From NCBI GenBank assembly GCA_937127445.1, contig CAKZLY010000014.1:191001-255000 (forward strand): a stretch of DNA of 64,000 bases, read 5' to 3'. The notes under the pieces were generated by a model that worked only from the letters and a program-made list of their open reading frames with translations, searched no databases and was not told the origin of the DNA. Made by a program: the position numbers and the translations under genes. Positions 37,730 to 55,695 of this stretch are shown here, in pieces. The stretch is from Eximiradius sp. (GTDB lineage Bacteria > Bacteroidota > Ignavibacteria > Kapaibacteriales > UBA2268). How positions within the stretch are numbered: the stretch's first letter is position 1; each line of letters starts with the position of its first letter.

Positions 37730-40066
37730 TCACTCTGCTTTGTCTAATTCAACAAAAAATGTAGACCCCTGGTTTGGTTGGCTTTCTACCCAGATGCGTC
37801 CTTTGTGGTAATCTATAAATTCTTTGCATAGTAGTAGTCCTAATCCAGTGCTCGATTCATCTTCTGTTCCAGTGCGAGAAACTTTTTCGGCTGGATTGAA
37901 TAACTTGCTCTTCAATTCTTCATCCATTCCAATGCCATAATCCTTTATAGAAACTACATATTTGTTGCCATTTTCGTTAACCTGAACATCAACTTTTTCT
38001 CCTCGAAACGAAAATTTGAGCGCATTTGATAACAAATTTCGGAAAATTGTATTCAACATCTGCAAGTCGCCAAAAACGTAGGCGTCGTTCTGTATATTCA
38101 GATAAAGAGAAATCTCCTTTAATTTAAAGCTACTTAACAACAAATCGGATATATTTTTTATTACTAATCGAATGTTGAGCCTTTCAGGATTAAATTGCTT
38201 CTTTCCACGTTGCACTCGCGACCATTCCAGCAGATTCTCGAGCAATTCCAATATATTGGAAGCAGATTTATGCATGTTTTCGGTATATTCTTGCAATTCA
38301 GTCAGTGTCAGTTCATTAAGGTTCTCGGAGAACATTTTGGACATCCCGACAAATGAAGAAATTGGTCCTTTCAGGTCGTGAGCAATAATTGAGAACAGCC
38401 TATCCTTCTGATCTATAATTTCTTTCAGTTTTTCACGACTTTCCAATATTTCATTTTCATATTTTTTCTTTTCGGTTATGTCGGTTACAGCACCGATTTG
38501 ATAGATTGCTCCGGGTTCGTCTGGCTTAGTAAATGGTTTTATGTGGTCTAATATCCAGCGCATTTCGCCTGATTTACTCAATATTCTATATTCTGCTTTG
38601 ATTTCTTCTAAATTATTTAATCGTGGTATATACTCTTCCTGAAATTTCTTGAAATCTTCGGGATGTATTATTTTAATTATTGTATTATAAGCTTCTTTAT
38701 AGTAGTCTAATTTATAACCTGTAATTTTTTCAAAACTACCCAGTAGCCATAATACTTCTATCTGCTTACCAGGAACACCTTTCGCCAGATATACATAATC
38801 AGTTATCATCTCCGAAATCATTTTGTAGCGCTCGTTTGTTTCGCTAAGCATTTTTTCGTAATTCTTCTTTTCAGTTATGTCTCTTCCAACAACAACTAAG
38901 CCTTTGCGTTCACCATTTTCGAAAATAGGTATTTTAATTACATCAAAAATTCTACTTTCTCCTTCCGGATTTGGAATAATCTCATCTCCTCGGACGGGTT
39001 TGCCTGCTTTCCAGGCTTTTTCATCACTATATATGCAGTATTCAAGAGCTTCTTTATAAAATGGAGCATATTGTGCCAGTTCTGCGTCAGTTTTTCCACG
39101 GTAATTCACTTCTTCCAAGCCAAATAGCTCCAAATTGAAATCATTTGTAATTATCCATCGTCCTTCGCCATCTTTAAAAGTAATAATATCTGGTATTGTA
39201 TTAATTAATGTACGCAATCTTAGCTCGCTCTCCTGTAAAGCATTCTCTATAATCATCTTCTCAGTAATATCTTCAATTAAAGTTGCAAACTGCAACTTAC
39301 GTGGCGAAAAAGCAATTACTTTGAAGTATTTATCTAATTCCTGAGAATAGCTCGTGAATTTCTTAACTGTCGAATTTAGAGCTACTTCACCGTATTGTTC
39401 AATCCAATAGTATTCAGTATCTGGTAGTACCTCTTTTACACGCTTACCAATAATTTTATCCTTTTTCAAACCAGTTAATTTTTCGAAAGCAGAATTGATA
39501 TCGAGGAATACATAATCAACGGGATTTCCATTTTCATCCAGAATAATTTCGTGCAGAGCTAGCCCCTGATCCATTTTCTCTATAAGTTCTCTGTATTTTT
39601 CTTCGCTTTCTCGTAATCGTATTTCTGCAATTTTTCTCTCTGTTATGTCTTCAATTGTCCCTTCGTAATATAATTCACCATCTTCATCGAGCACTTTCTT
39701 CCCAATGTCTCTGACCCAAATAATCGAGCCATCCTTGCGTATAAATCTATATTCTTCTGCTATCATATCTGTTGTACCGAATTGAGCAGTCTGAACTATA
39801 CGCAATTCTGGAACAGCGTAAAGACTAAAAGCATTTACTTTGCTTAATTCTTCAAATGAATTATATCCTGCGAGGTTAACTAATGCCTTGTTTGCATAAA
39901 TGATTGTACCATCAGGCTTGGACTTGTAAACACCAATTGGCAGATCATCAAGTGATAAATGGACCTCTGCTGAAATGTCCGAGTTGGACGTATTTATTTC
40001 TTCGTCTTCTGCTTTATTTCGAAGGCTATTTTGGTTATCTTTGGGTCGTCCCTTTTGATTTTTCAT
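37730..40066 (-). CDS. Cytosolic sensor histidine kinase with four PAS domains
   Basis: Four PAS/PAC units ending in GTIEDITERK, ATLIEDITEK, VVGRDITEKK, GAVTDITEKK; HisKA FSIIAHDLKGPISS; HATPase NLLSNALKF...STGLGLLLCKEF. Confidence 0.92.
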   Translation of the reverse strand: MKNQKGRPKDNQNSLRNKAEDEEINTSNSDISAEVHLSLDDLPIGVYKSKPDGTIIYANKALVNLAGYNSFEELSKVNAFSLYAVPELRIVQTAQFGTTDMIAEEYRFIRKDGSIIWVRDIGKKVLDEDGELYYEGTIEDITERKIAEIRLRESEEKYRELIEKMDQGLALHEIILDENGNPVDYVFLDINSAFEKLTGLKKDKIIGKRVKEVLPDTEYYWIEQYGEVALNSTVKKFTSYSQELDKYFKVIAFSPRKLQFATLIEDITEKMIIENALQESELRLRTLINTIPDIITFKDGEGRWIITNDFNLELFGLEEVNYRGKTDAELAQYAPFYKEALEYCIYSDEKAWKAGKPVRGDEIIPNPEGESRIFDVIKIPIFENGERKGLVVVGRDITEKKNYEKMLSETNERYKMISEMITDYVYLAKGVPGKQIEVLWLLGSFEKITGYKLDYYKEAYNTIIKIIHPEDFKKFQEEYIPRLNNLEEIKAEYRILSKSGEMRWILDHIKPFTKPDEPGAIYQIGAVTDITEKKKYENEILESREKLKEIIDQKDRLFSIIAHDLKGPISSFVGMSKMFSENLNELTLTELQEYTENMHKSASNILELLENLLEWSRVQRGKKQFNPERLNIRLVIKNISDLLLSSFKLKEISLYLNIQNDAYVFGDLQMLNTIFRNLLSNALKFSFRGEKVDVQVNENGNKYVVSIKDYGIGMDEELKSKLFNPAEKVSRTGTEDESSTGLGLLLCKEFIDYHKGRIWVESQPNQGSTFFVELDKAE

Positions 40067-40174
40067 TTTAGGACCGAAAAAATTTACATTCTAATATAAT
40101 TATTAATAAATTAATACATGATTAATAATATGTTAATATATTTTAATGTAATTAGAAAAATTGAGGGAAAAATT

Positions 40175-41584
40175 CTAATCAGCTTTATTATATAAATGAG
40201 TTAAGTTAATAGAACTGACAACAACTGATTCGATCTTCTTATCTTCTTGTTTAAGAGGGTCTATGAAAAAAATAAATTTTTCAAAATGTCCATCTGTTGC
40301 CGGTATTTCTAATTCTACCTGTGAGCTTTCACCGGAGAAAGCTTTTATCAACTTTTCAAATAACAAATCTTTCAAATGTGCGGGACATATTTCATAAAAT
40401 TTATTGCCTTCATCTAACTCATAACCAAAAAATTGCTTTACATCTTTTTCAAAACTTTTGTTGAAAGCAATAATATTATAATTAGTGTCGAGCAGGACAA
40501 AAGATTGGCGAGTGTTGTTCAGTATTGCATTGAGCTTTCGCTCTGATTGAGCCAAAGCAGCTTGCTGTTGATGCAAAGCTCTATCGGCCTCTTTTCGCTT
40601 TGTAATGTTAATAATAGAGCAAATGATAAAATTTTCGTTATTAAGTTTGAATTTTCTCGAAAAAAGTTCAATACTAAAATTTTCACCATTCTTTTTTTTC
40701 TCAATAGATTCAGTAAAAAAATCATAATTTAATATGTTTATATCATAATTTTCAAATATTTTTTCTATAAGCTCCCTGCTAATAAATAATTCAGATTCCC
40801 TTCCAATTAATTCACTTTTATTATATCCAAACATTTTGCAGGCACTTTGATTAATTGCTACAACCGTAGCGTTTGCGTCGAAAATTATAATACCTTCTAC
40901 TACTGATTCAAAAATCATTTGATACTGCTGCATACTTATCTCTGTCTGCATCTGGGCTAATTTTAAATCTGTAATATCCCGTGCTATTCCATCGATTTGA
41001 TATATCTTCCCACTTTTGTCAATTTTTCTTGTCAATTTATCTAATATATATCTAATTTGTCCATCTAATTTTTTTATCCTATATACTACTTCAAGTTGAG
41101 GTGTGTCTTCCAATCTCGACATGGCATTGAAAAAAATATTCTTGTCGTCTGGGTGAATTAACCCAAACCACAAATTCGGCATGTTTCTTAAATTTTCTAT
41201 CTCTATTCCATACACCTTTTCGACAGCCTTGTTTACAAATAGTAGCTTTATTATCGGATATGACACTGACCACACAATATCATCAATGTAAAACAATATT
41301 TCATTGAGATGCCCCTCTTTTGAGCGGAGTTCTTTCTCAATTTGTTCTAACGCTATTTCTTTCTCATACAATTTTTGGGTTATCTCATTGATTTTTTCGT
41401 GTGTTTTATCTATGGTTTCGTTAAGAATTGCTATGCTCTCAAAATAAGAAAAATCGCTTTCGTTAATAAGAGATGATTTTTCTAATTTTTGCATAAGAGC
41501 AGATATAATTTTCTCCGATTGCTGCAATTTTTTCTCTAATTCAGCAATTGATGGGGATATACCTCTATTTGGATCACTTTGCAT
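40175..41584 (-). CDS. PAS-repeat protein with N-terminal coiled coil and no kinase or output domain
   Basis: Coiled-coil N-terminus then three PAS units (DDIVWSVSYP..., MIFESVVEGIIIFDANATVVAINQSACKMFGY, LNAILNNTRQSFVLLDTNYNIIAFNKSF); ends at SSINLTHLYNKAD. Confidence 0.85.
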   Translation of the reverse strand: MQSDPNRGISPSIAELEKKLQQSEKIISALMQKLEKSSLINESDFSYFESIAILNETIDKTHEKINEITQKLYEKEIALEQIEKELRSKEGHLNEILFYIDDIVWSVSYPIIKLLFVNKAVEKVYGIEIENLRNMPNLWFGLIHPDDKNIFFNAMSRLEDTPQLEVVYRIKKLDGQIRYILDKLTRKIDKSGKIYQIDGIARDITDLKLAQMQTEISMQQYQMIFESVVEGIIIFDANATVVAINQSACKMFGYNKSELIGRESELFISRELIEKIFENYDINILNYDFFTESIEKKKNGENFSIELFSRKFKLNNENFIICSIINITKRKEADRALHQQQAALAQSERKLNAILNNTRQSFVLLDTNYNIIAFNKSFEKDVKQFFGYELDEGNKFYEICPAHLKDLLFEKLIKAFSGESSQVELEIPATDGHFEKFIFFIDPLKQEDKKIESVVVSSINLTHLYNKAD

Positions 41585-41591
41585 CTATTGC

Positions 41592-42854
41592 TTAATCCTC
41601 TGTTGGAATATCCACATAAAAAGTTGTGCCTTCATTCAATTTGCTTTCGACCGCAATTTTCCCACCCATCTTTTCGATAAAATCTCGACATATTACAATA
41701 CCTAAACCCGTGCCTTTCTCTTTTTCAGTTCCTGGTGTCGATTGCACCTTTTCGAGTGTAAATAATTGCGATTTTTTCTCTTCACTCATCCCAACCCCGG
41801 TATCTGAAACAGATAAGCGAAGAAACGGCTTCCCCTCCTTAACGACTTTCTCTGCGTTGAGAGTTACTTTTCCTCCTTTGTGAGTGAATTTGATTGCATT
41901 AGATACCAGATTCCTTACAATTGTTGCCATCATATTGTTATCGAATAGCGCATAAGTGCCAATAGGAATATTATTTTCTATCGCGATCTCTTTTTGTTCT
42001 GCTTGTTGGTTTAATGTTAAAAGTGTCCCAGCAAGAATAGATGCTAAGTCTTCTTTTGCGATATTCATCTGAATTCTTCCCATTTGCGATCGCGACCATT
42101 CAAGCAAATCTTCAATAAATTTATATGTTTGCTGAGCGGTTTTATTTAGCGAATGAACCATATCAGCTAATTCTTCTTTGCTAAATTCATTAATATGATG
42201 ATTTATTATATCTGTCATTGTCAATAAACCAGCAAAAGGGCTTTTTAAGTCGTGAGATACTATCGAAAAGAATTTATCTTTCATTTCATTTAACTTTTTC
42301 AATTCTTCATTGCTTTTCCTTAAAAAAGTTTCATTTTGAATTAGTTGAAGGTATAATTTATTCAAGTTCTGTGCTTGTTGTTCTAAATCACTGTATGCCT
42401 TTTTGATCTGTTCATTCTTTTGCATTAGCTCTGTGTATTGCTGCTTTATCAGATCTTTTGAATTTTTCAGCTCAAGATGAGTTTTAATTCTTGCCATTAC
42501 TTCAAGAGCATTGAAAGGCTTTGTAACGTAATCGACACCGCCAATTTCAAAAGCTTTGAGGATGTCTTCTGTTTCTGTTTTAGCTGTAAGAAATATTATA
42601 GGAATTTCGCGCGTTAACTCGTTGTTTTTCAATGTTTCACATACTTCGAAGCCCGACATCTCCGGCATCATAATATCGAGTAGAATTAAATCGGGTGCCT
42701 TACCTCTGGCTGTTTCGATTGCTTTCGGCCCGTTGTCAGCAATCAATAAATTATAATGCTCGCGTAGCAAAGTCCCAATTAAGCGTATGTTTTGAGGCTG
42801 GTCGTCAACCACAAGAATTGTATTTTTCTTTGTAGTTTGTGGCATATTATTCAT
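41592..42854 (-). CDS. Response regulator receiver - histidine kinase (REC-HisKA-HATPase)
   Basis: TILVVDDQPQNIRLIGTLL...LILLDIMMPEMSGFEV...TAKTE...TKPF; FSIVSHDLKSPFAG; NLVSNAIKFTHKGG...GTGLGIVICRDF. Confidence 0.93.
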   Translation of the reverse strand: MNNMPQTTKKNTILVVDDQPQNIRLIGTLLREHYNLLIADNGPKAIETARGKAPDLILLDIMMPEMSGFEVCETLKNNELTREIPIIFLTAKTETEDILKAFEIGGVDYVTKPFNALEVMARIKTHLELKNSKDLIKQQYTELMQKNEQIKKAYSDLEQQAQNLNKLYLQLIQNETFLRKSNEELKKLNEMKDKFFSIVSHDLKSPFAGLLTMTDIINHHINEFSKEELADMVHSLNKTAQQTYKFIEDLLEWSRSQMGRIQMNIAKEDLASILAGTLLTLNQQAEQKEIAIENNIPIGTYALFDNNMMATIVRNLVSNAIKFTHKGGKVTLNAEKVVKEGKPFLRLSVSDTGVGMSEEKKSQLFTLEKVQSTPGTEKEKGTGLGIVICRDFIEKMGGKIAVESKLNEGTTFYVDIPTED

Positions 42855-42866
42855 AAATTCACCACA

Positions 42867-45800
42867 TTATTTTAATTTATTATAAATTTCACTGAATGCT
42901 TTCGATAGTTTCTCAATCTCGAAATTATCAAAATAACTATTCAAAACATTAGATACATTAATTAATTTCTCATTATTGTTCGTTTTAGCAAATTGTCTTA
43001 ATTGATTAATAAAATCTTCGGCTTCCTGCAAATCTGTATATTTCATCAAATTTTCAATTTGATTTGCGAATAATTTAGAAAAATCTTTCAAGATTTCCGA
43101 ATTAATTGAATTTAATAATTCATTAATATTACATTTTGCAGCTAATAATTCTTCTGGTTGCTCCTCTTTGTCGCTTGCAGTAAAATCAAGATGCCTTACA
43201 AGCTCGGAAATTATCTCATTGCGGTTAGCTGGTTTACGCAGAAATCCATTGAAAAGGGTATTAACCCTTGTCTCATCTTCCTTCATCGATGATGCTGTGT
43301 AAGCGATAATCGGTATGTTCTTAATTCCAAGCTCATCACGAATAATATTTCTCGTCTGGTATCCGCTCATTTCTGGCATACGTAAGTCCATCATAATAAG
43401 ATTAACTTCAATCGTGCGAAGCAATTCTATTGCTTTCCGCCCATTGCTCGCCTCCAAAATAGTAGTATTCGTATCTTCAAGATGCGCCCGAACAATATCA
43501 ATATTTTGCTGTATATCATCTACTATCAGAATCTTCGCACCTTTGAAGTCAACTATTTTACTCGACCAATCGATTTGTTCGCTTGCCTTTTTGATTTCAT
43601 CGAGTCTCTGCACGTTATATAATCGGACAGTGAATGTAGAACCTTTCCCGAGTTCGCTTTCGACTGTGATTTCCCCACCCATCATCTTTACCAAACGGCT
43701 CGATATTGCAAGCCCAAGCCCTGTGCCGCCAAAGTGCTTCACACTAACAGTGCTTGCCTGACGAAACGATTCAAATATTAAATCTTTGTCCTCTGGTGCA
43801 ATCCCAATTCCTGTGTCTTTTACATCGATTTTCAGGTTGTAATGTTGATTATCTACTTTATGGTGCGAAAGCGAGATATACACACCACCTTCTTTCGTGA
43901 ATTTGATTGCGTTCCCGACCAAATTTATCAGCACCTGACGAATTCTAACTTCATCAAGAAATAGATTATCCGGTGGATTTCCCGGAATTACAAGTTCAAA
44001 TTTTAATTTTCGCTGGTTTGCCTGCTCGAAAAAAATCTGGTATATATCATTTAAAGTTTCTGCAATATTAACGGGTTCAGGTTGAAGTTCTATCCGACCT
44101 GCTTCTATTTTTGATAAATCAAGTATGTCGTTGATTAAGGCAAGCAATGTACGCCCACTTTTCTGAATTGTTTCAAGATATCCTTTGAATGGCTGCTCAC
44201 GTATGGATTTGAGCATAATATCAGAAAATCCTAAAATGGCATTCATCGGAGTTCGTATCTCATGGCTCATATTCGCTAAAAATTCAGATTTTGCACGGTT
44301 CGCTTGGTCTGCTATCTGTTTCTGCTTGATAATTTCTAACTCAAATTTGTTCCGTGCTATTGCACCAGCAATTATTTCTGCTGCAAGCCTGTATAAAGAT
44401 ACTGTGTCGTAGTCCCAATCACGCTCTTTTTGCAAAGTATCAAACACTATAAAACCTATTAACTCATTCCCGTAAAACATTGGAACGCTAAGCAATGATA
44501 TTATTCCGATTTCCAACAGTGTCGATTTTTCTTCAAATTCATCAGGCAGCTTCTGAACATTCTGTATTTGAACAAAATCATTGTCCTTGAAGAGATCTAT
44601 CCAACGTCGAATCATTTGATATCGTATTAAACTAATTTTTTCTATTTCTTGCGGCACATTTTCCAAAATCCAGCTATATGTATTTTCAATATGTTGGCTT
44701 GATTCGTGTAATGTGAAAATATATACTCTATCAGATCCCGAGAAACGACCTAATATTTCGAGCGCAAATACTATTCCACTATGCAAATCCTTAGCTGTTG
44801 ATTGAATTAATACAGAAGATAATTCATTGATTATTGAGTTTAATCGATACATTTCTTCTAATTTTTTAGCTGCTAACTTATTCTCTGTTATATCGCGGAC
44901 AATTCCCATTAATAAATTATTCCCAAACGGGCTTATTCTAACTTCGTAATATTTATATTCATTCTTATAATTTATATTGAACTCGTAACGTTGAAGCTCA
45001 CCGGTTTCTAATGCTTTTTCAAGATAAAAATAAAGATTATTTGCAATATCTATTTCAAGTACTTCGTTGAGTTTTTTGCCGATGAAAAACCTTGGTGGAA
45101 TAAGCAATTGCTTGGGATTTGACGTATGATAATCAATGAATTTACCCTCTCGAGTTAATATAAATACAAGATCGGGCGAAGAATCAAGTAGAGCACGGTT
45201 GCGTGCCTCGCTTTCGCGTAATGCCTCGTTTGCTAACTTGCTTTCAGTTATGTCCAGAGCAAGACCCAACACGCCAATAATTTTCCCCTCTTCGTCTGTC
45301 ATTCGTGATTTCACTATTTGCAGGTAGTGCTTTGTCCCATCGTTGAAAGTTACTTCTTCTACAAATTCAATAGGTAAATTCGATTGAATTGCCTGCTGGT
45401 CGGTTTCTTGTAATTTTTTAAGTTCATCTTCTGTAAAGGACAACCCATTCTCGTTTCCTGTGTTTATACGCATTAGCATATTTTCGAAAATCGTATTGCT
45501 TTCAGTGTCATTAAGCCAAATAAATATTGGTGCATTGTCTAATATTGATTCAATTAATTTTTTCTGGCGATTTAAGTCGATTTCTGCAAGTTTTTTCTCT
45601 GTTATATCGCGATTTGAAATTCTGCGCCCTAAAAAATTCCCTTGTGTGTCGAATATTGGCCTATTTATGTGCTGGATGTATCTTATTTCGCCGCCTTTGC
45701 GTTTTATTCTAAATTCGAGTTCTACAGTCCGAGATTCCGATTTTAAATTAGTTACATTAGAGAAATAATCATAGTCATCAGGATGAACTATAAAGTGAAG

Positions 45801-46598
45801 CAAGTCGGGATTTGTTATAAATTCATCTGGCAAATATCCCGTTATGCGTTCGCAAGATGGTGAAATATACATAAATTTGTTATCGGGGTCGAGCCAATAT
45901 TCCCAATCATAAGTGTAATTGGCAAGTGTTCGAAATTTTTGTTCACTGCTTAGAAGCTTCAATTCTGCTTCTCTCTGGTACGTTATATCAGAAGCAATTC
46001 CATCCAATCTATATTGCTCTTCTTCGGCAATTGTTATTCGAAATCGGTTCTTGATCCAGCATATTTTTCCACTTGGCAGAAACACACGGTATATTACCTC
46101 TTGTGTAGTTCCATCTTTTGCAACCTCAATCCTTTTCTCTAATTCCGACCTATCTTCTGGGTGAATTATGTCCAACCATAATTGAGGATACTTTATGAAA
46201 TCTTCCGCGGGGAACTCAAATATTTTTTCTATACTCTGGTTTGTAAATAGTAAATTTAACTCTGGATAAGTAGCCGACCATACTATATCATCGAGAGAAT
46301 TGATTACTGCATAAAGTCTTTTCTCTTTTGCTTTTAAGCTTCTTTCGTAAGACTTTTTCTCTTCTTCAAAATGTGCTAGCTCGGAACATAAAGATTGAAA
46401 TTCTAAATTCTTCTTCTCTAAAATTTCATTAAGTAAGGCATTTGTTTCGAACAGCCCATAGTCGTTTTCATCAATTGATTGGATTTTTTCAATACGCTCA
46501 ATTAAAGCCTTCTGTATTTTTCTTGCTTTGCTTAGCTCTCTTTCGAGATTACTTATTTTTATAAGGATTTCGTCGATATTAATATCTCCATTTCCCAT
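42867..46598 (-). CDS. Hybrid sensor histidine kinase: coiled coil-PASx4-GAF-HisKA-HATPase-REC-degenerate Hpt-like tail
   Basis: PAS units ([35 protein letters not shown] etc.), GAF ([11 protein letters not shown]...[23 protein letters not shown]), [37 protein letters not shown]...[15 protein letters not shown] 46598 preferred over TTG 46616. Confidence 0.92.
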
Positions 46599-46612
46599 AA
46601 ATTCAATATAAA

Positions 46613-49600
46613 TCAAGTACTTTTAACAACAGGAAGAGTGAAGTAAAATGTTGAACCTTTATTTTCCTTACTGTTAAGATAAATAATTCCGCCGTGTTTT
46701 TCAACAAATTCTTTGCATAATATTAGTCCAAGTCCCGAACCCGTTTCTTTCTCAGTACCTTTAGTCGTAATTTGTGCATCTATTCTGAATAGCTTATCTT
46801 TATGTTCTTCGGGAATACCAACCCCGTTATCTTCGACAGCAATTTCAGCAAAATCTCCTTCTACCTTGTTAATAAAAATCTTAATTCTTCCGCCACGATG
46901 AGTGAATTTTATTCCATTCGTTACAAGATTTCTTACAACTCCCGTTATCATATTCCTGTCGCAATAAACTACGAAATCATCAGGCACATTTATCGACAAA
47001 TCAATTTCTTTATTGGTTGCAATTTCTCGCAAAGTGTATAGTGAATTATTTATGATTTCTTTTAATGTGATTTGCTCAGGATTATACGGTATTTTCCCAA
47101 GTTGTAATCGCGACCATTGCAATAAGTCATCAAGCAATTTATATACAGAATTTGCTGAATTATATATTGCTTGCGACATCTTACGAAGTTCACGCAAGGA
47201 CAAATCTTCCAGATCTTTGGCCATCATATCGGTTAGTCCCAAAAAACCACTGAATGGTCCACGTAAATCGTGCGAAATGATTGAGAAGAAGTTATCCTTT
47301 GCCGATATAGTTTCTTCAAGTCGTTGCTTGATTTCTTCGAGCTCTTTTATTAGATTATTCTTTTCTTCCAGTGTTTGTTCTATCTTTTGGTTTGACAGTT
47401 TTAATGCATCTAATAGTGCTCTCTGCTCTTCATCAGCTCGCTTTTTATCGTCAATATCTTCTATAAAACACAATATTTCATCATCTTTTAATAACACAGC
47501 AGAAATTTTCGCCCAAAATACTTTTTCTTTTGCATCTTGCATAATTATTTCAATTGTTCTATTTTCACTATTTAAAGTTGAAAGTGTATCTATAAATAAA
47601 TCGTGCTTCTGAAAAATAAAATATAATATATTTTTATTAAGTAGATTTTCTTCTGATGTTTTAATTAATTCCTGAAATGCTCGATTACAGCCATGAATGA
47701 TGCCATCCTTCCTAATCGAGACTATTCCCATCGGTGCAGCCTGAATGTACGCTTTGAACGTTTTGTAGCTTTGTTCAAGCAAATTCTGATTAATTTTCTT
47801 TTCTGTTATATCGAGCAAATTTAATAATACATATTCACTGTTCCCAGATTGAATAAAAGAAGTCGTTGCCAGAAATGTGTATTCTCTAAGCATACCATTG
47901 AGCATAAGTTTTGCGTTGTGTTCGATACCGGTAACACTCTGTCTGGTTTCGAGTGTTTTCTGTATAGCTTTGTTCAATTTGCACTCAGAGCAATCAGGTC
48001 CAAATCCGCAGCCAAGATCCGAATCTTTCTCGTGTATGCAACCAAAACAACCACAGGCTCTCTTGTTAATAAGCTCTTCAAGTGGAATCCCCAGGAAATC
48101 TGTTGTTGTTTTATTAGCGTAGACTATCCTTGAGTTGGTATCCAATAAGCTAATTAGTACAGGTGAGCTATCATAAATTGCTTGTAATTCTGTGTTTATT
48201 TTGTTGAGTTCTTTTATTAACTCTCTTTCGTATGTTATATCACGCTTTATAGCGACATAATTTATGATTTTACCTTTGTCGTTTTTTACCGGCGTTATTG
48301 TTAAAAACTCTATATATTTTGAACCATCTTTACGCCTGTTGATAATTTCTCCTTTCCAAGTTTTACCGTTTGCTATCGTTTTCCACATAGTTTTGTAGAA
48401 TTCTTTGTTCTGTTCACCGGAATTAACAAGCTCCCTTGGATTTTTCCCTATTGCTTCTTCCAGCGAATAGCCTGTTAGTTCCGAAAATGCAGGATTTATA
48501 TACTGTATGTTTCCTCGAACATCAGTTATGACAACACTTTCCGTTGTAGAATTGATGGCAGAATTCAGTAGTTGTAGCCTTTCTTCTTGCAAACGTTTTT
48601 CTTTGTCAATATCTATATGTGCAGCAATAATTTTAGTTGGGTTGCCTTCTTTATCCCATTCAGTTACTCTACCATTACATTTTACCCACTTCCAATTTCC
48701 ATCTTTTGTCTTCATCCTATATTCGTGACTAAATTGTCCGTGCTTATTTGAAATAAGTTCCTTTATTGTTGTTTCTACTTTTTCCCTATCTTCTATATGA
48801 ATATGTTCAATAATATTTTCTATACTGTTTTCAAATTCATCAGGACTATACCCTAATATTTTAAAGAACTTATGATTTAATGCAACTTGCCCATTTGCAA
48901 TGTCATATTCCATAATGCTATTATCAATGATATCTGTAATAGTTTCCAGCTTTCTTAAATAGGATTTCCTTTTTGTAATATCTCTTGCCGCTCCAACAAA
49001 ACCAACCAAAACTTTTTCTTTAAACACTGGTTGCGAACTAACTTCAAGCCATACTAAATTGCCTTTTGGTGTTGTGTATGGGACCTCAAAAACGGCATCT
49101 TCTATTGTTCCTTTTTCTAAAAAAATTTTTTCCCTATTCATCAACAAAGCGAACAATTCACTTTCTTCCGAAATGTCCAATAATTTTAACACAGATTTCC
49201 CTATTACTTCCTCACAACTCAGACCCGAAATCTTTTCAAATGCAGGCGAAACATATTTAATAATGTAATTTTCATCAACCTCCCAAACTACATCCTGTAT
49301 GCTTTGCATATACAAATCAAATCGCATCTTTTCATTTAATATCGTTTCTGATTGTGCCTTTTGAAATGTGATATCTCTATTGTCGGCTATTCTCCCTATA
49401 TATTTGCCGTTTTCATAAATTGGCCTGCATATGTGCGAAATGGTTTTTATTTGTCCGCTTTTCGTAACAATTCGAAATTCTACTTCGAATGTGTTGGGAT
49501 TTTCAGTATAAGCGACTTTTGCATGTTCAATATATTTTTCTTTGTCTTCATCGTAAACAATATCTATCAAAAAATTATTATTTACTTCTATCTCTTCCAT

Positions 49601-49723
49601 CGAATACTCTGTGAATTGCTCTACTGATTTTGAATGGAACTCTATTTTCCCTTGCGGGGTCATCCAATATATCCAATCAGCAATGTGGTCCGCAATTATT
49701 TTTAATGATTTTTCTTTCATCAT
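46613..49723 (-). CDS. Cytosolic sensor histidine kinase with six PAS domains, one containing a Cys-rich insertion
   Basis: PAC endings RIADNRDITFQK, GAARDITKRK, AAHIDIDKEK, AIKRDITYER, LNLLDITEKK, CFIEDIDDKK; FSIISHDLRGPFSG; GSGLGLILCKEF. Confidence 0.92.
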   Translation of the reverse strand: MMKEKSLKIIADHIADWIYWMTPQGKIEFHSKSVEQFTEYSMEEIEVNNNFLIDIVYDEDKEKYIEHAKVAYTENPNTFEVEFRIVTKSGQIKTISHICRPIYENGKYIGRIADNRDITFQKAQSETILNEKMRFDLYMQSIQDVVWEVDENYIIKYVSPAFEKISGLSCEEVIGKSVLKLLDISEESELFALLMNREKIFLEKGTIEDAVFEVPYTTPKGNLVWLEVSSQPVFKEKVLVGFVGAARDITKRKSYLRKLETITDIIDNSIMEYDIANGQVALNHKFFKILGYSPDEFENSIENIIEHIHIEDREKVETTIKELISNKHGQFSHEYRMKTKDGNWKWVKCNGRVTEWDKEGNPTKIIAAHIDIDKEKRLQEERLQLLNSAINSTTESVVITDVRGNIQYINPAFSELTGYSLEEAIGKNPRELVNSGEQNKEFYKTMWKTIANGKTWKGEIINRRKDGSKYIEFLTITPVKNDKGKIINYVAIKRDITYERELIKELNKINTELQAIYDSSPVLISLLDTNSRIVYANKTTTDFLGIPLEELINKRACGCFGCIHEKDSDLGCGFGPDCSECKLNKAIQKTLETRQSVTGIEHNAKLMLNGMLREYTFLATTSFIQSGNSEYVLLNLLDITEKKINQNLLEQSYKTFKAYIQAAPMGIVSIRKDGIIHGCNRAFQELIKTSEENLLNKNILYFIFQKHDLFIDTLSTLNSENRTIEIIMQDAKEKVFWAKISAVLLKDDEILCFIEDIDDKKRADEEQRALLDALKLSNQKIEQTLEEKNNLIKELEEIKQRLEETISAKDNFFSIISHDLRGPFSGFLGLTDMMAKDLEDLSLRELRKMSQAIYNSANSVYKLLDDLLQWSRLQLGKIPYNPEQITLKEIINNSLYTLREIATNKEIDLSINVPDDFVVYCDRNMITGVVRNLVTNGIKFTHRGGRIKIFINKVEGDFAEIAVEDNGVGIPEEHKDKLFRIDAQITTKGTEKETGSGLGLILCKEFVEKHGGIIYLNSKENKGSTFYFTLPVVKST

Positions 49724-52191: not shown

Positions 52192-53481
52192 ATGAAGAAA
52201 TTTTTGTTGTTGATATGCCTTCTGCTTGTTAGTTCACAATACGCTCAAAGTCAGCTTTCACGAGGAGAAACAATGGACAAAGTGCTGGCTGTTGTCGGTA
52301 ATGAAGTGATTTTGCTTAGCGATGTGCGTGGACAACTTCTGATGATGGCTCAGCAAGACCCACGAGTAAATCCCGACGACCCAAAGCTCTTTCAGGAATT
52401 GCTTGATGCATTAATAAATGAAAAGCTACTTATTACTAAAGCAGTCGAGGATTCAATCGTAGTTACTGACGAACAAATCGAAGCTCGTTGGCAAGCTTTT
52501 CTACAAACTTTAATTCAGCAGTTTGGTTCAGAAGAAAGAGTTGAGCAAGTTTATAAAAAATCTATCAATAGAATAAAATTCGAACTGCGCGACGATATTC
52601 GCAATAAATTGCTTTCTGCTAACCTTGTTCAGCAACTTATTGGAAATGTTTCAATTACACCAAAAGAAGTCGAAGAATTCTTCAAATTATACCGCGATTC
52701 TATCCCCAAAGTGCCAGATACTTATGAAATCTATCACCTTGTCAAATATGTTGATGTACGACAGGACGAAAAGAAACGAGCTTTGGAACTTGCACGAAGT
52801 GTTAGGGATTCTATTCTCAACGGTGGTGCTTTCGAAAGTTTTGCTGCTCGCTATAGTCAGGATTTTGCTACCTCCTCGAAAGGCGGAGACCTCGGCTGGG
52901 TTTCTCGTGGTAAGTTCTTCCCCGAATTCGAAAATGCTGCCTTTTCGCTCGAATCTGGCGATATCTCGCGCCCTGTCGAAACGCCATTTGGTTTTCACTT
53001 AATTCAGGTTGTCGAGAAAAAGAAAGATGCTATACACGCTCGCCATATTCTGTTCAAAATTTCGCAGTCGTCAGACGACTATGAACGTACTCGTGCTTTT
53101 CTGGATTCCCTTCGTTTAGTCGCTATCGAACAAAATAATTTTTCCGAGCTTGCCCGCCTCCATTCCGACGACAAAGAAACTCGCGGCTTTGGTGGGCTCA
53201 TTGGCAGACTGCCTATGAATGAACTCCCCTCGAACTTCCGCGAACAAATTAAACAACTTAAAGATGGCGGTATTTCCGACCCTCTTTCTTATAATGTTGT
53301 CCAAAATAAACCTGCTTTCCATATTATTTATAAAAAAGCAACTATTCCCGAGCATTACGCTACTCTCAAACAAGACTATGAATATATAAGCAACATCGCA
53401 CTTGATCATAAAAAAATGAAAATATACAATGATTATATCCAAAAATTGCGAAAAGAAATTTATTGGGAAGTTAAGAAATAG
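52192..53481 (+). CDS. SurA-like periplasmic peptidylprolyl isomerase (two parvulin domains)
   Basis: Signal peptide MKKFLLLICLLLVSSQYAQSQ; VLAVVGNEVILLSDV; GGDLGWVSRGKFFPEFENAAFSLESGDISRPVETPFGFHLIQVV; HARHILFKI. Confidence 0.9.
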   Translation: MKKFLLLICLLLVSSQYAQSQLSRGETMDKVLAVVGNEVILLSDVRGQLLMMAQQDPRVNPDDPKLFQELLDALINEKLLITKAVEDSIVVTDEQIEARWQAFLQTLIQQFGSEERVEQVYKKSINRIKFELRDDIRNKLLSANLVQQLIGNVSITPKEVEEFFKLYRDSIPKVPDTYEIYHLVKYVDVRQDEKKRALELARSVRDSILNGGAFESFAARYSQDFATSSKGGDLGWVSRGKFFPEFENAAFSLESGDISRPVETPFGFHLIQVVEKKKDAIHARHILFKISQSSDDYERTRAFLDSLRLVAIEQNNFSELARLHSDDKETRGFGGLIGRLPMNELPSNFREQIKQLKDGGISDPLSYNVVQNKPAFHIIYKKATIPEHYATLKQDYEYISNIALDHKKMKIYNDYIQKLRKEIYWEVKK

Positions 53482-53491
53482 AAGGTTGCGT

Positions 53492-53869
53492 ATGGACAAT
53501 AGCAAAAAAATACTTATAGTCGATGATTCCATAGTTGCGCGGATGGCAATTAAGAAAATTCTTTCAAAAAAATTTAATTCTATTAAAGAAGCAAGCAGTG
53601 GGACAGATGCAATTGAATTGCTTAAAAACGAGCAATTTGATTGCATTCTTGTTGATTACCTCATGCCGGGCATTAATGGAGTTACTACAATCAAAATTAT
53701 GCGCGAAATGGGTATCAATTCCCCCATTATTGTTATTTCTGCTAACCAACAAAAGGCTATCTTAGACAAATTCAGTGAACTGGGGGTTGTTGCCATCTTG
53801 AAAAAGCAAGTTGCCGAACAAGATTTGTTCGATGCTGTCGAAAAAGCTCTTTTTTCTCGCGGAGGTTAG
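53492..53869 (+). CDS. CheY-like single-domain response regulator
   Basis: MDNSKKILIVDDSIVARMAIKKIL...CILVDYLMPGINGVTTIKIM...VISAN...ILKK; about 125 aa, no output domain. Confidence 0.92.
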   Translation: MDNSKKILIVDDSIVARMAIKKILSKKFNSIKEASSGTDAIELLKNEQFDCILVDYLMPGINGVTTIKIMREMGINSPIIVISANQQKAILDKFSELGVVAILKKQVAEQDLFDAVEKALFSRGG

Positions 53870-53871
53870 TT

Positions 53872-54486
53872 ATGAATTACGAACTTACTCAAATTCAGCA
53901 AGAATCTATTCTCGAACTGCTTAATATTGGTATCAATGAAAGCACAAATATTCTTAGCGGAATACTCAACGTCGAAATTGAACTTTCTATCCCAAGAATT
54001 CGCATTATCTCTTCCGACCGTCTTATCGAAGAACTAAAAGATTTGGGAAAGGAAGATTACTCAGCTGTGAATATGGAATTTCACAACAGTTTTTCTGGTA
54101 TTTCTCAACTCGTCTTTTCGCAGGAAAGTGCTAACAAATTAGTTAATGTGTTCTCACGTCAGGTGCTCGATACTTACGAGTTCGACGAAATCAAAGCCGG
54201 CGCTCTGGTTGAAATCGGTAATATTATTCTCAATGCTATTCTTGCTACTTTCAGTAATTCACTCGAACACGAATTCGAATTCTATGTGCCTGTCTTTTTC
54301 GAAAACTACAAAAAGGAATTTTTCGAACAACGCCTGAAATTTATCGACGAAGTAGTTCTTCTTGGCAAAGCAATATTTCTCATTGAAGAACTTAAAATTT
54401 CCGGTGATATTATACTATTCTTCAATATCAAATCCTTCCAATACTTCGTAAGTATTATTGACCAGTATGTAAACAAAATTAGTTAA
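53872..54486 (+). CDS. CheC-like CheY-P phosphatase
   Basis: Two ExxN catalytic-type motifs: ILELLNIGINESTNILSGIL and ALVEIGNIILNAILATFSN; adjacent to the cheY-like gene. Confidence 0.85.
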   Translation: MNYELTQIQQESILELLNIGINESTNILSGILNVEIELSIPRIRIISSDRLIEELKDLGKEDYSAVNMEFHNSFSGISQLVFSQESANKLVNVFSRQVLDTYEFDEIKAGALVEIGNIILNAILATFSNSLEHEFEFYVPVFFENYKKEFFEQRLKFIDEVVLLGKAIFLIEELKISGDIILFFNIKSFQYFVSIIDQYVNKIS

Positions 54487-54504
54487 ATATTATTCTGTAT
54501 TGCT

Positions 54505-55695
54505 ATGCTCAAAGATATTTATTACGAAAATCCTTTAATTACTTACGACCATATACCAATAGGTATTTGCATAATTAATAGTAATTTCAATATTATTTTC
54601 TGGAATAGAACCCTTGAAGCCTGGACTAATATTCAACGCGAAGAAGTAATATTTAAAAATATATTTGAATTGTTTCCACATTTGCAGGCACCTAAATACA
54701 AGGCAAGATTAAAATTGATGTTCGAAGGGCGTCCACCGATGGTGCTTTCTCCGATGCTTAATGAATACTTTATCCCAATCAAAGATATTGATGGGAAATA
54801 CCAGGCTCAAACGGTTACTCTTTCGTCTATCTCAACCAATGAAACTGGCTCATACAACGTAATCATTGCTGTCGAAAACGTTGCCACTTTATTCAATAAG
54901 GTTCAGCAATATAGGATGATTAAAAACCAAGCAATTGATGAATTAAATCGTCGCACCGAAGCCGAAGAAAAACTCAAAGAATATACAAAAAAATTAGAAT
55001 TGCTGAATTCCACAAAAGACAAGTTTTTTTCCATTATTGCTCACGATTTGATAAATCCGATCTCCGCTCAATATAAACTTGTTAAAATACTTAAAGATAA
55101 TATTGAACAATTCAGCAAAGAAGATATTATCGATATAATTGATGAAATCAAAAACTCAGCTTCACATACATATAAGTTGCTCGAAAATCTTCTTACCTGG
55201 TCTCGCTCCCAGCTAAACAAATTTTCTATTCATATTGAGCAACATAATCTGTCCGAGATAATTAAATTGGCTGCAAACGATATATCTTCACAGATAGTAG
55301 TGAAGAAAATTTCCTTTTACATCTCCGAAAACTGCAACTCAACTGTTTGTTGCGATAGTAATTTACTCGCAACTGTTATTCGGAACCTACTCTCCAACGC
55401 TGTTAAATTTACAAATTATGGAGGTAAAATATCAGTTAGTTGCCGTATCGATAACGATTTCACTTATATTTTTGTCGAAGACAACGGAGTGGGTATGGAC
55501 GAAGACACTTTAAACAACCTATTTAAATTAGATAAAACACAATCTAAACTCGGAACTAATAAAGAAGTTGGAACGGGGCTTGGACTTGTCATCTGCAAAG
55601 AGTTTGTCGAGAAAATGAGTGGCGAAGTCTTTGCCGAAAGTAAACTGGGCGTTGGAAGTAAATTTACTATAAAATTACCCACTTGCCCGAATTAA
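54505..55695 (+). CDS. PAS sensor histidine kinase (cytosolic)
   Basis: PAS DHIPIGICIINSNFNIIFWNRTLEAW; FSIIAHDLINPIS; NLLSNAVKFTNYGG; VGTGLGLVICKEF. Confidence 0.9.
   Translation: MLKDIYYENPLITYDHIPIGICIINSNFNIIFWNRTLEAWTNIQREEVIFKNIFELFPHLQAPKYKARLKLMFEGRPPMVLSPMLNEYFIPIKDIDGKYQAQTVTLSSISTNETGSYNVIIAVENVATLFNKVQQYRMIKNQAIDELNRRTEAEEKLKEYTKKLELLNSTKDKFFSIIAHDLINPISAQYKLVKILKDNIEQFSKEDIIDIIDEIKNSASHTYKLLENLLTWSRSQLNKFSIHIEQHNLSEIIKLAANDISSQIVVKKISFYISENCNSTVCCDSNLLATVIRNLLSNAVKFTNYGGKISVSCRIDNDFTYIFVEDNGVGMDEDTLNNLFKLDKTQSKLGTNKEVGTGLGLVICKEFVEKMSGEVFAESKLGVGSKFTIKLPTCPN

Follow-up and report, generated by a model that had tools for sequence, protein, structure and literature searches.

A receiver, CheC-like protein and PAS histidine kinase encoded side by side in a Kapabacteria genome represent a widespread cassette with a constant PAS domain and exchanged outputs

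Three adjacent genes, encoding a stand-alone CheY-like receiver, a predicted CheC-like phosphatase and a cytosolic PAS histidine kinase (Table 1), are to judge from their conservation a real unit of a widespread family, in which the constant third element is a PAS domain while the output domain behind it is exchanged. They are located in a window of 64,000 nucleotides (C14:191001-255000), the whole stretch of DNA analyzed here, in a 2.45 Mb, 99%-complete assembly of the Kapabacteria/Ignavibacteria group. CheC is chiefly associated with chemotaxis. In this genome, as across many phyla, its gene is found outside the chemotaxis cluster, accompanied by those for a receiver and for a dedicated PAS domain that carries either a kinase or a cyclic-di-GMP synthase as output, and it is this exchange of the output behind the PAS domain that makes the cassette of interest.

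Table 1. Positions of the cassette, its upstream neighbor and a minus-strand run of signaling genes in the window.
Feature	Position	Strand	Length	Match or remark
SurA-like peptidyl-prolyl isomerase gene	52192-53481	+		Rotamase 3.5e-40
Stand-alone CheY-like receiver (REC)	53492-53869	+	125 aa	PF00072 5e-25
CheC-like phosphatase (predicted)	53872-54486	+	204 aa	two pseudo-symmetric sites
Cytosolic PAS-HisKA-HATPase_c histidine kinase	54505-55695	+	396 aa	HATPase_c, PAS and HisKA matches
Cassette-specific PAS domain of the kinase	54505-54909	+		PAS profile
Kinase of the minus-strand run	37730-40066	-
PAS-only protein of the minus-strand run	40175-41584	-
REC-HisKA kinase of the minus-strand run	41592-42854	-
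Large hybrid kinase of the minus-strand run	42867-46616	-
Kinase with several PAS domains, minus-strand run	46613-49723	-

The initial annotation had the three genes, their positions and their spacing (2 bp between the receiver and the CheC-like gene, 18 bp between the latter and the kinase gene) right, and its domain calls, a CheY-like receiver, a CheC-like protein retaining both E-x-x-N motifs and a cytosolic PAS kinase of the HisKA type, are upheld by the matches and residues given below. The stop codon of a SurA-like gene lies 10 bp upstream of the receiver gene and the trio is therefore probably part of a longer transcript in this genus. The same neighbor is common to loci L040-L043, and co-transcription of the SurA-like gene with the trio is probable in this genus and one other. 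Different neighbors are present in other genera, and the SurA-like gene is outside the conserved unit.

Thirteen cassette relatives all share the acidic pocket (D11/D12) of the receiver, its phospho-acceptor D55, S83 and K105. The receiver's identity with E. coli CheY is 23%, and Tyr106 and Pro110 of the motor-binding surface are replaced by Ile and Gln. The genome encodes a different CheY that is 53% identical to the E. coli protein and keeps both the Tyr and the Pro; it belongs to a Pfam-confirmed cheR-cheY-cheY-cheZ-cheA cluster on contig C6. Judged by Tyr106 and Pro110, the cassette receiver does not pass for a chemotaxis CheY. The difference in identity and the absence of these two residues indicate that the cassette is probably not a chemotaxis CheY/phosphatase pair, and it is probably separate from the canonical cheY/cheZ/cheA cluster.

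The initial annotation had described the cassette as being without CheA, CheW or receptors. This is true inside the window but not for the genome, in which we found ten CheW-domain matches (including the C-termini of CheA proteins), three MCPs, FliM and FliN. A search for cheA, mcp and fliM thus recovered all of them, plus CheZ, and the implied absence of chemotaxis is refuted; a genome devoid of chemotaxis was rejected on the CheW, MCP, FliM and CheZ matches. A full chemotaxis system to which the receiver and the CheC-like protein might belong therefore exists, but its ownership of the cassette is not borne out.

The CheC-like protein matched Thermotoga CheC (PDB 1xkr) with 1e-8 in phmmer and 2e-21 with a profile, and its AlphaFold model (pLDDT 82.6) superimposes on 1xkr with a TM score of 0.81, followed by FliY, CheX and FliM as the next structural matches. 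Each of its two sites conforms to E-X2-N-X22-P, with E15/N18/P41 at site 1 and E114/N117/P140 at site 2, the family proline being 23 residues beyond the ExxN motif in both. Across the best 80 of 386 related loci, site 1, the motif of which had been left out of the search seed, is conserved without exception (Glu 79/79, Asn 81/81, Pro 82/82). Site 2 is equally conserved in these loci, a figure that is biased because its motif had seeded the search. The first position of the D/S-X3-E motif departs from expectation at both sites, being Glu at site 1 and Gly at site 2; among the distant relatives in the same best 80 loci the site 1 residue is Asp in 71 of 79, and Glu is a conservative departure. 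PF04509 found no match anywhere in the genome, PF13690 scored 22 bits on the CheC-like protein, below its 27-bit cut-off, and the Thermotogales CheC equivalog model gave 46 bits against a cut-off of 250. Since the Pfam CheC/CheX models missed even the window protein, they are uninformative about further CheC proteins in the genome; a protein search detected this one copy only. Taken together, the protein is by fold and motifs a divergent member of the CheC phosphatase family, for which dephosphorylation is predicted. An identity as CheX was rejected on account of the sub-threshold PF13690 score, the presence of two sites and a structure nearer to CheC than to CheX.

A class I (chemotaxis) CheC or a CheC-CheD adaptation system was likewise rejected, as there is no cheD in the locus. 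The only CheD match of the genome is on contig C30 (G000:C30:30102-30410), and the four g22 genomes that carry the cassette have none. The C30 match is situated within an open frame of 328 aa, about twice the length of an ordinary CheD, as is also seen in several relatives, and a fusion is possible.

For the kinase, matches were obtained to HATPase_c (1e-24), PAS (6.5e-8) and HisKA (1.6e-5); the HATPase_c domain is clear, and the HisKA match, at 25.3 bits, falls slightly under its cut-off of 26.9. H180 and D181 are invariant in 12 relatives and N184 occupies position His+4. In HisKA kinases, the acidic residue following the His is needed for kinase activity and an Asn at His+4 for phosphatase activity (PMC3510030). 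With this Asn kept, the kinase may erase phosphate too, in which case CheC may be partly redundant.

A profile seeded with the first 135 residues of 12 Kapabacterial kinases set the PAS domain apart. CheC-adjacent proteins scored 15-202 bits with it in 72 of the best 80 of 386 loci, whatever their output domain, against at most 10.4 bits for PAS proteins from elsewhere in the window and from the sampled part of the same genome, a control set of modest size that included one multi-PAS protein. The other proteins of the best 80 of 386 loci reached at most 15.4 bits, with three exceptions that are located just beyond the adjacency limit. A kinase profile was without comparable specificity. The PAS domain, which bears G20, W33-N34, a Phe-Pro pair and S82 as its signature, is on these profile scores a cassette-specific type that is common to CheC-linked kinases and diguanylate cyclases. 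The closest solved structure to this subfamily is PDB 3mxq (5e-9), deposited as 'Sensor protein'.

To collect the wider family, the CheC alignment was run against 84,980 species genomes and yielded 386 relatives; the best 80 of them, selected on CheC similarity alone, were analyzed. These come from Nitrospirota, Nitrospinota, deltaproteobacteria, Bacteroidota, Planctomycetota, Spirochaetota, Anaerolineales, Verrucomicrobia and the alpha-, beta- and gammaproteobacteria. By automatic calls, a few of which are affected by contigs ending early, a receiver is encoded directly upstream of CheC in about 62 of the best 80 of 386 loci, and 72 of the 80 encode a PAS protein on its downstream side. On Pfam and motif evidence, the third protein of these loci is a HisKA kinase in 34 cases (14 of them hybrid) and carries a GGDEF (diguanylate cyclase) domain in about 20, some with EAL; it is a HisKA_2 kinase in two Azospirillum proteins that were tested, to which ten more are similar by profile, and a HisKA_3 kinase in locus L121. 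Five Thioploca/Beggiatoa-type loci (L079, L082, L088, L090 and L095) lack the third gene and keep receiver and CheC. In a Prolixibacteraceae locus (L061:375-1617), a tandem pair of CheC genes separates the receiver gene from that of the PAS kinase.

Within the family of the source organism, a CheC relative is present in 13 of 54 genomes, and receiver, CheC and PAS kinase are adjacent in 12-13 genomes of seven genera, wherever the contig permits. Synteny was confirmed in this way with identities going down to about 30% and flanking genes that vary by genus, so that the adjacency cannot well be due to chance. All Kapabacteria loci that were read have a kinase gene in third position. Pairwise distances of the three proteins are correlated (r 0.97-0.98), which fits co-inheritance and is no evidence of interaction. 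All 13 cassette genomes encode CheZ, compared with 16 of the 41 other family genomes; at the genus level this is 7/7 with the cassette against 10/20 without (p 0.026, not corrected for phylogeny). FliM is likewise found in 13/13, a co-occurrence that is uninformative since most family genomes have FliM, and a CheA dimerization domain is detectable in 12/13. Housekeeping genes flank the cassette in most genera. In one genome (G031, L044:3447-8377) it is convergent to a fliM-fliO run and about 50 bp from its end. A link of the cassette to motility is suggested, and the distribution of CheZ together with the fliM-fliO adjacency makes coupling to the motor possible.

For loci that bear a kinase, we regard a path that leads from the kinase through the receiver to CheC as the best reading of the encoded domains. 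We consider it fairly probable that the cassette is a self-contained two-component module, in which the kinase phosphorylates the receiver and CheC removes the phosphate, alongside the flagellar CheA-CheY-CheZ pathway. For cue, phosphotransfer, dephosphorylation and output alike, we infer the following course: the PAS domain would sense a cytosolic cue, the kinase would autophosphorylate on H180 and hand the phosphate on to the receiver at D55, from which the CheC-like protein would strip it again, and the cassette would probably tune motility or surface behavior. The view that the neighbors are coincidental or vestigial and without a joint function is hardly credible, being contradicted already by conservation: the trio extends over seven genera with different flanks, its exchanged-output form over many phyla, and catalytic residues are retained at 30% identity. 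The write/erase unit outside chemotaxis that the initial annotation proposed accordingly holds as a conserved, separate unit; its logic of a kinase that writes is not general. Kinase-to-receiver transfer as the common denominator is opposed by about 20 GGDEF and five PAS-less loci among the best 80 of 386, the GGDEF loci indicating that the third gene is not always the writer of the receiver, and for the whole family a kinase that writes and a CheC that erases was rejected on these GGDEF loci.

The exchange of outputs suggests a second reading, with CheC and receiver acting on the PAS domain. Phosphorylated receiver bound by CheC would then dock on the dedicated PAS domain and switch the attached enzyme, with the kinase as a target or feedback part, which we hold to be possible though unlikely. 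That the PAS domain is the constant part, with a profile that matches CheC-adjacent proteins regardless of their C-terminal domain and other PAS domains barely, speaks in favor of such docking, as does the fact that diguanylate cyclases do not phosphorylate receivers; a precedent is the CheY-P-dependent binding of CheC and CheD in B. subtilis (PMC3579733, PMC3513319). Yet with a kinase as third gene in every Kapabacteria locus read, ordinary kinase-to-receiver transfer is simplest, and a hybrid kinase is encoded close by in at least one of the GGDEF loci (L100). The corresponding description of the cassette, in which receiver and CheC are permanently paired with one dedicated PAS domain and CheC, bound to phosphorylated receiver, would control through this domain, in plug-in fashion, whichever enzyme it carries, kinase or diguanylate cyclase, is put forward only tentatively. 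If the PAS domain were the target of CheC and receiver, one conserved control unit would be reused on different signaling currencies, and the cassette genes offer natural pairs for testing this idea. Less plausible still is an auxiliary chemotaxis input or sink, in which CheA phosphorylates the receiver, or the receiver acts at the motor, with CheC as an extra CheY-P phosphatase. The constant company of CheZ and FliM, the CheA domain in 12 of the cassette genomes and the fliM-fliO neighborhood in G031 agree with it, and in L101 CheC adjoins a CheA-like gene and CheW, as read by eye; but a canonical CheY is encoded elsewhere in the genome along with CheZ, the cassette receiver is devoid of the motor-binding Tyr and Pro, most genera show housekeeping flanks and CheD is absent from the cassette-bearing g22 genomes.

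Several known systems resemble the cassette. CheC of Thermotoga maritima and Bacillus subtilis takes part in chemotaxis together with CheD, its substrate being the CheY-P that CheA produces; the cassette protein shares its fold and active-site motifs at a sequence identity of only about 20%. Muff and Ordal reportedly assigned class II CheCs, in 2008, to non-chemotaxis systems. These have in common with the cassette the CheC fold, a pair of ExxN-X22-P sites, a locus free of cheD and a position apart from the chemotaxis cluster, a likeness qualified by the first D/S-X3-E residues noted above. Ordinary HisKA two-component systems with single-domain receivers have the same PAS-HisKA-HATPase kinase and stand-alone receiver, whereas the cassette has a dedicated, predicted CheC-type phosphatase built in. 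In Burkholderia cenocepacia, BCAM2836 is presumably, to go by its locus number, the diguanylate cyclase neighbor of the REC and CheC protein BCAM2837. Such REC-CheC response regulators have been catalogued as a 'CheC-like' family, for example Psyr_0886 of P. syringae (PMC2222644, PMC5654926). BCAM2837 has been described as probably sharing a transcript with genes for a diguanylate cyclase and a histidine kinase, and the strain deleted for it swims but has a swarming defect (PMC3296584). When the diguanylate cyclase BCAM2836 was deleted, swimming rose by up to 18% and the biofilm was affected as well (PMC6335245). REC-CheC regulators are like the cassette in uniting receiver and CheC as one regulator, with sensor enzymes probably co-transcribed in the case of BCAM2837; they differ in being a fusion where the cassette has two separate proteins, and the predicted Burkholderia operon comprises a diguanylate cyclase and a kinase, that of the window a kinase alone. 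With CheC-type phosphatases outside chemotaxis and REC-CheC regulators already known, the cassette, though conserved and probably functional, is not categorically new. No description of the exchangeable-output PAS pattern was found in the literature searched, a weak indication that the pattern has yet to be reported.

Further signaling genes were noted in the same genome. Contig C15 carries a receiver-bearing kinase (L034:5408-7420) that scored 331 bits with the cassette kinase profile, second only to the cassette kinase by kinase-domain score; it adjoins a gene with a CheW domain and is a possible paralogue for cross-talk. The minus-strand run of five signaling genes in the window (37730-49723) is followed by an apparent polyphosphate kinase gene on the opposite strand. 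About 15 kb beyond the window end (L036:14907-17496, G000:C14:269906-272495), a CheW-like gene stands beside a gene whose 692-aa product matches Hpt and CheW weakly and HATPase not at all; we regard the two as a degenerate or highly divergent CheA-CheW pair.
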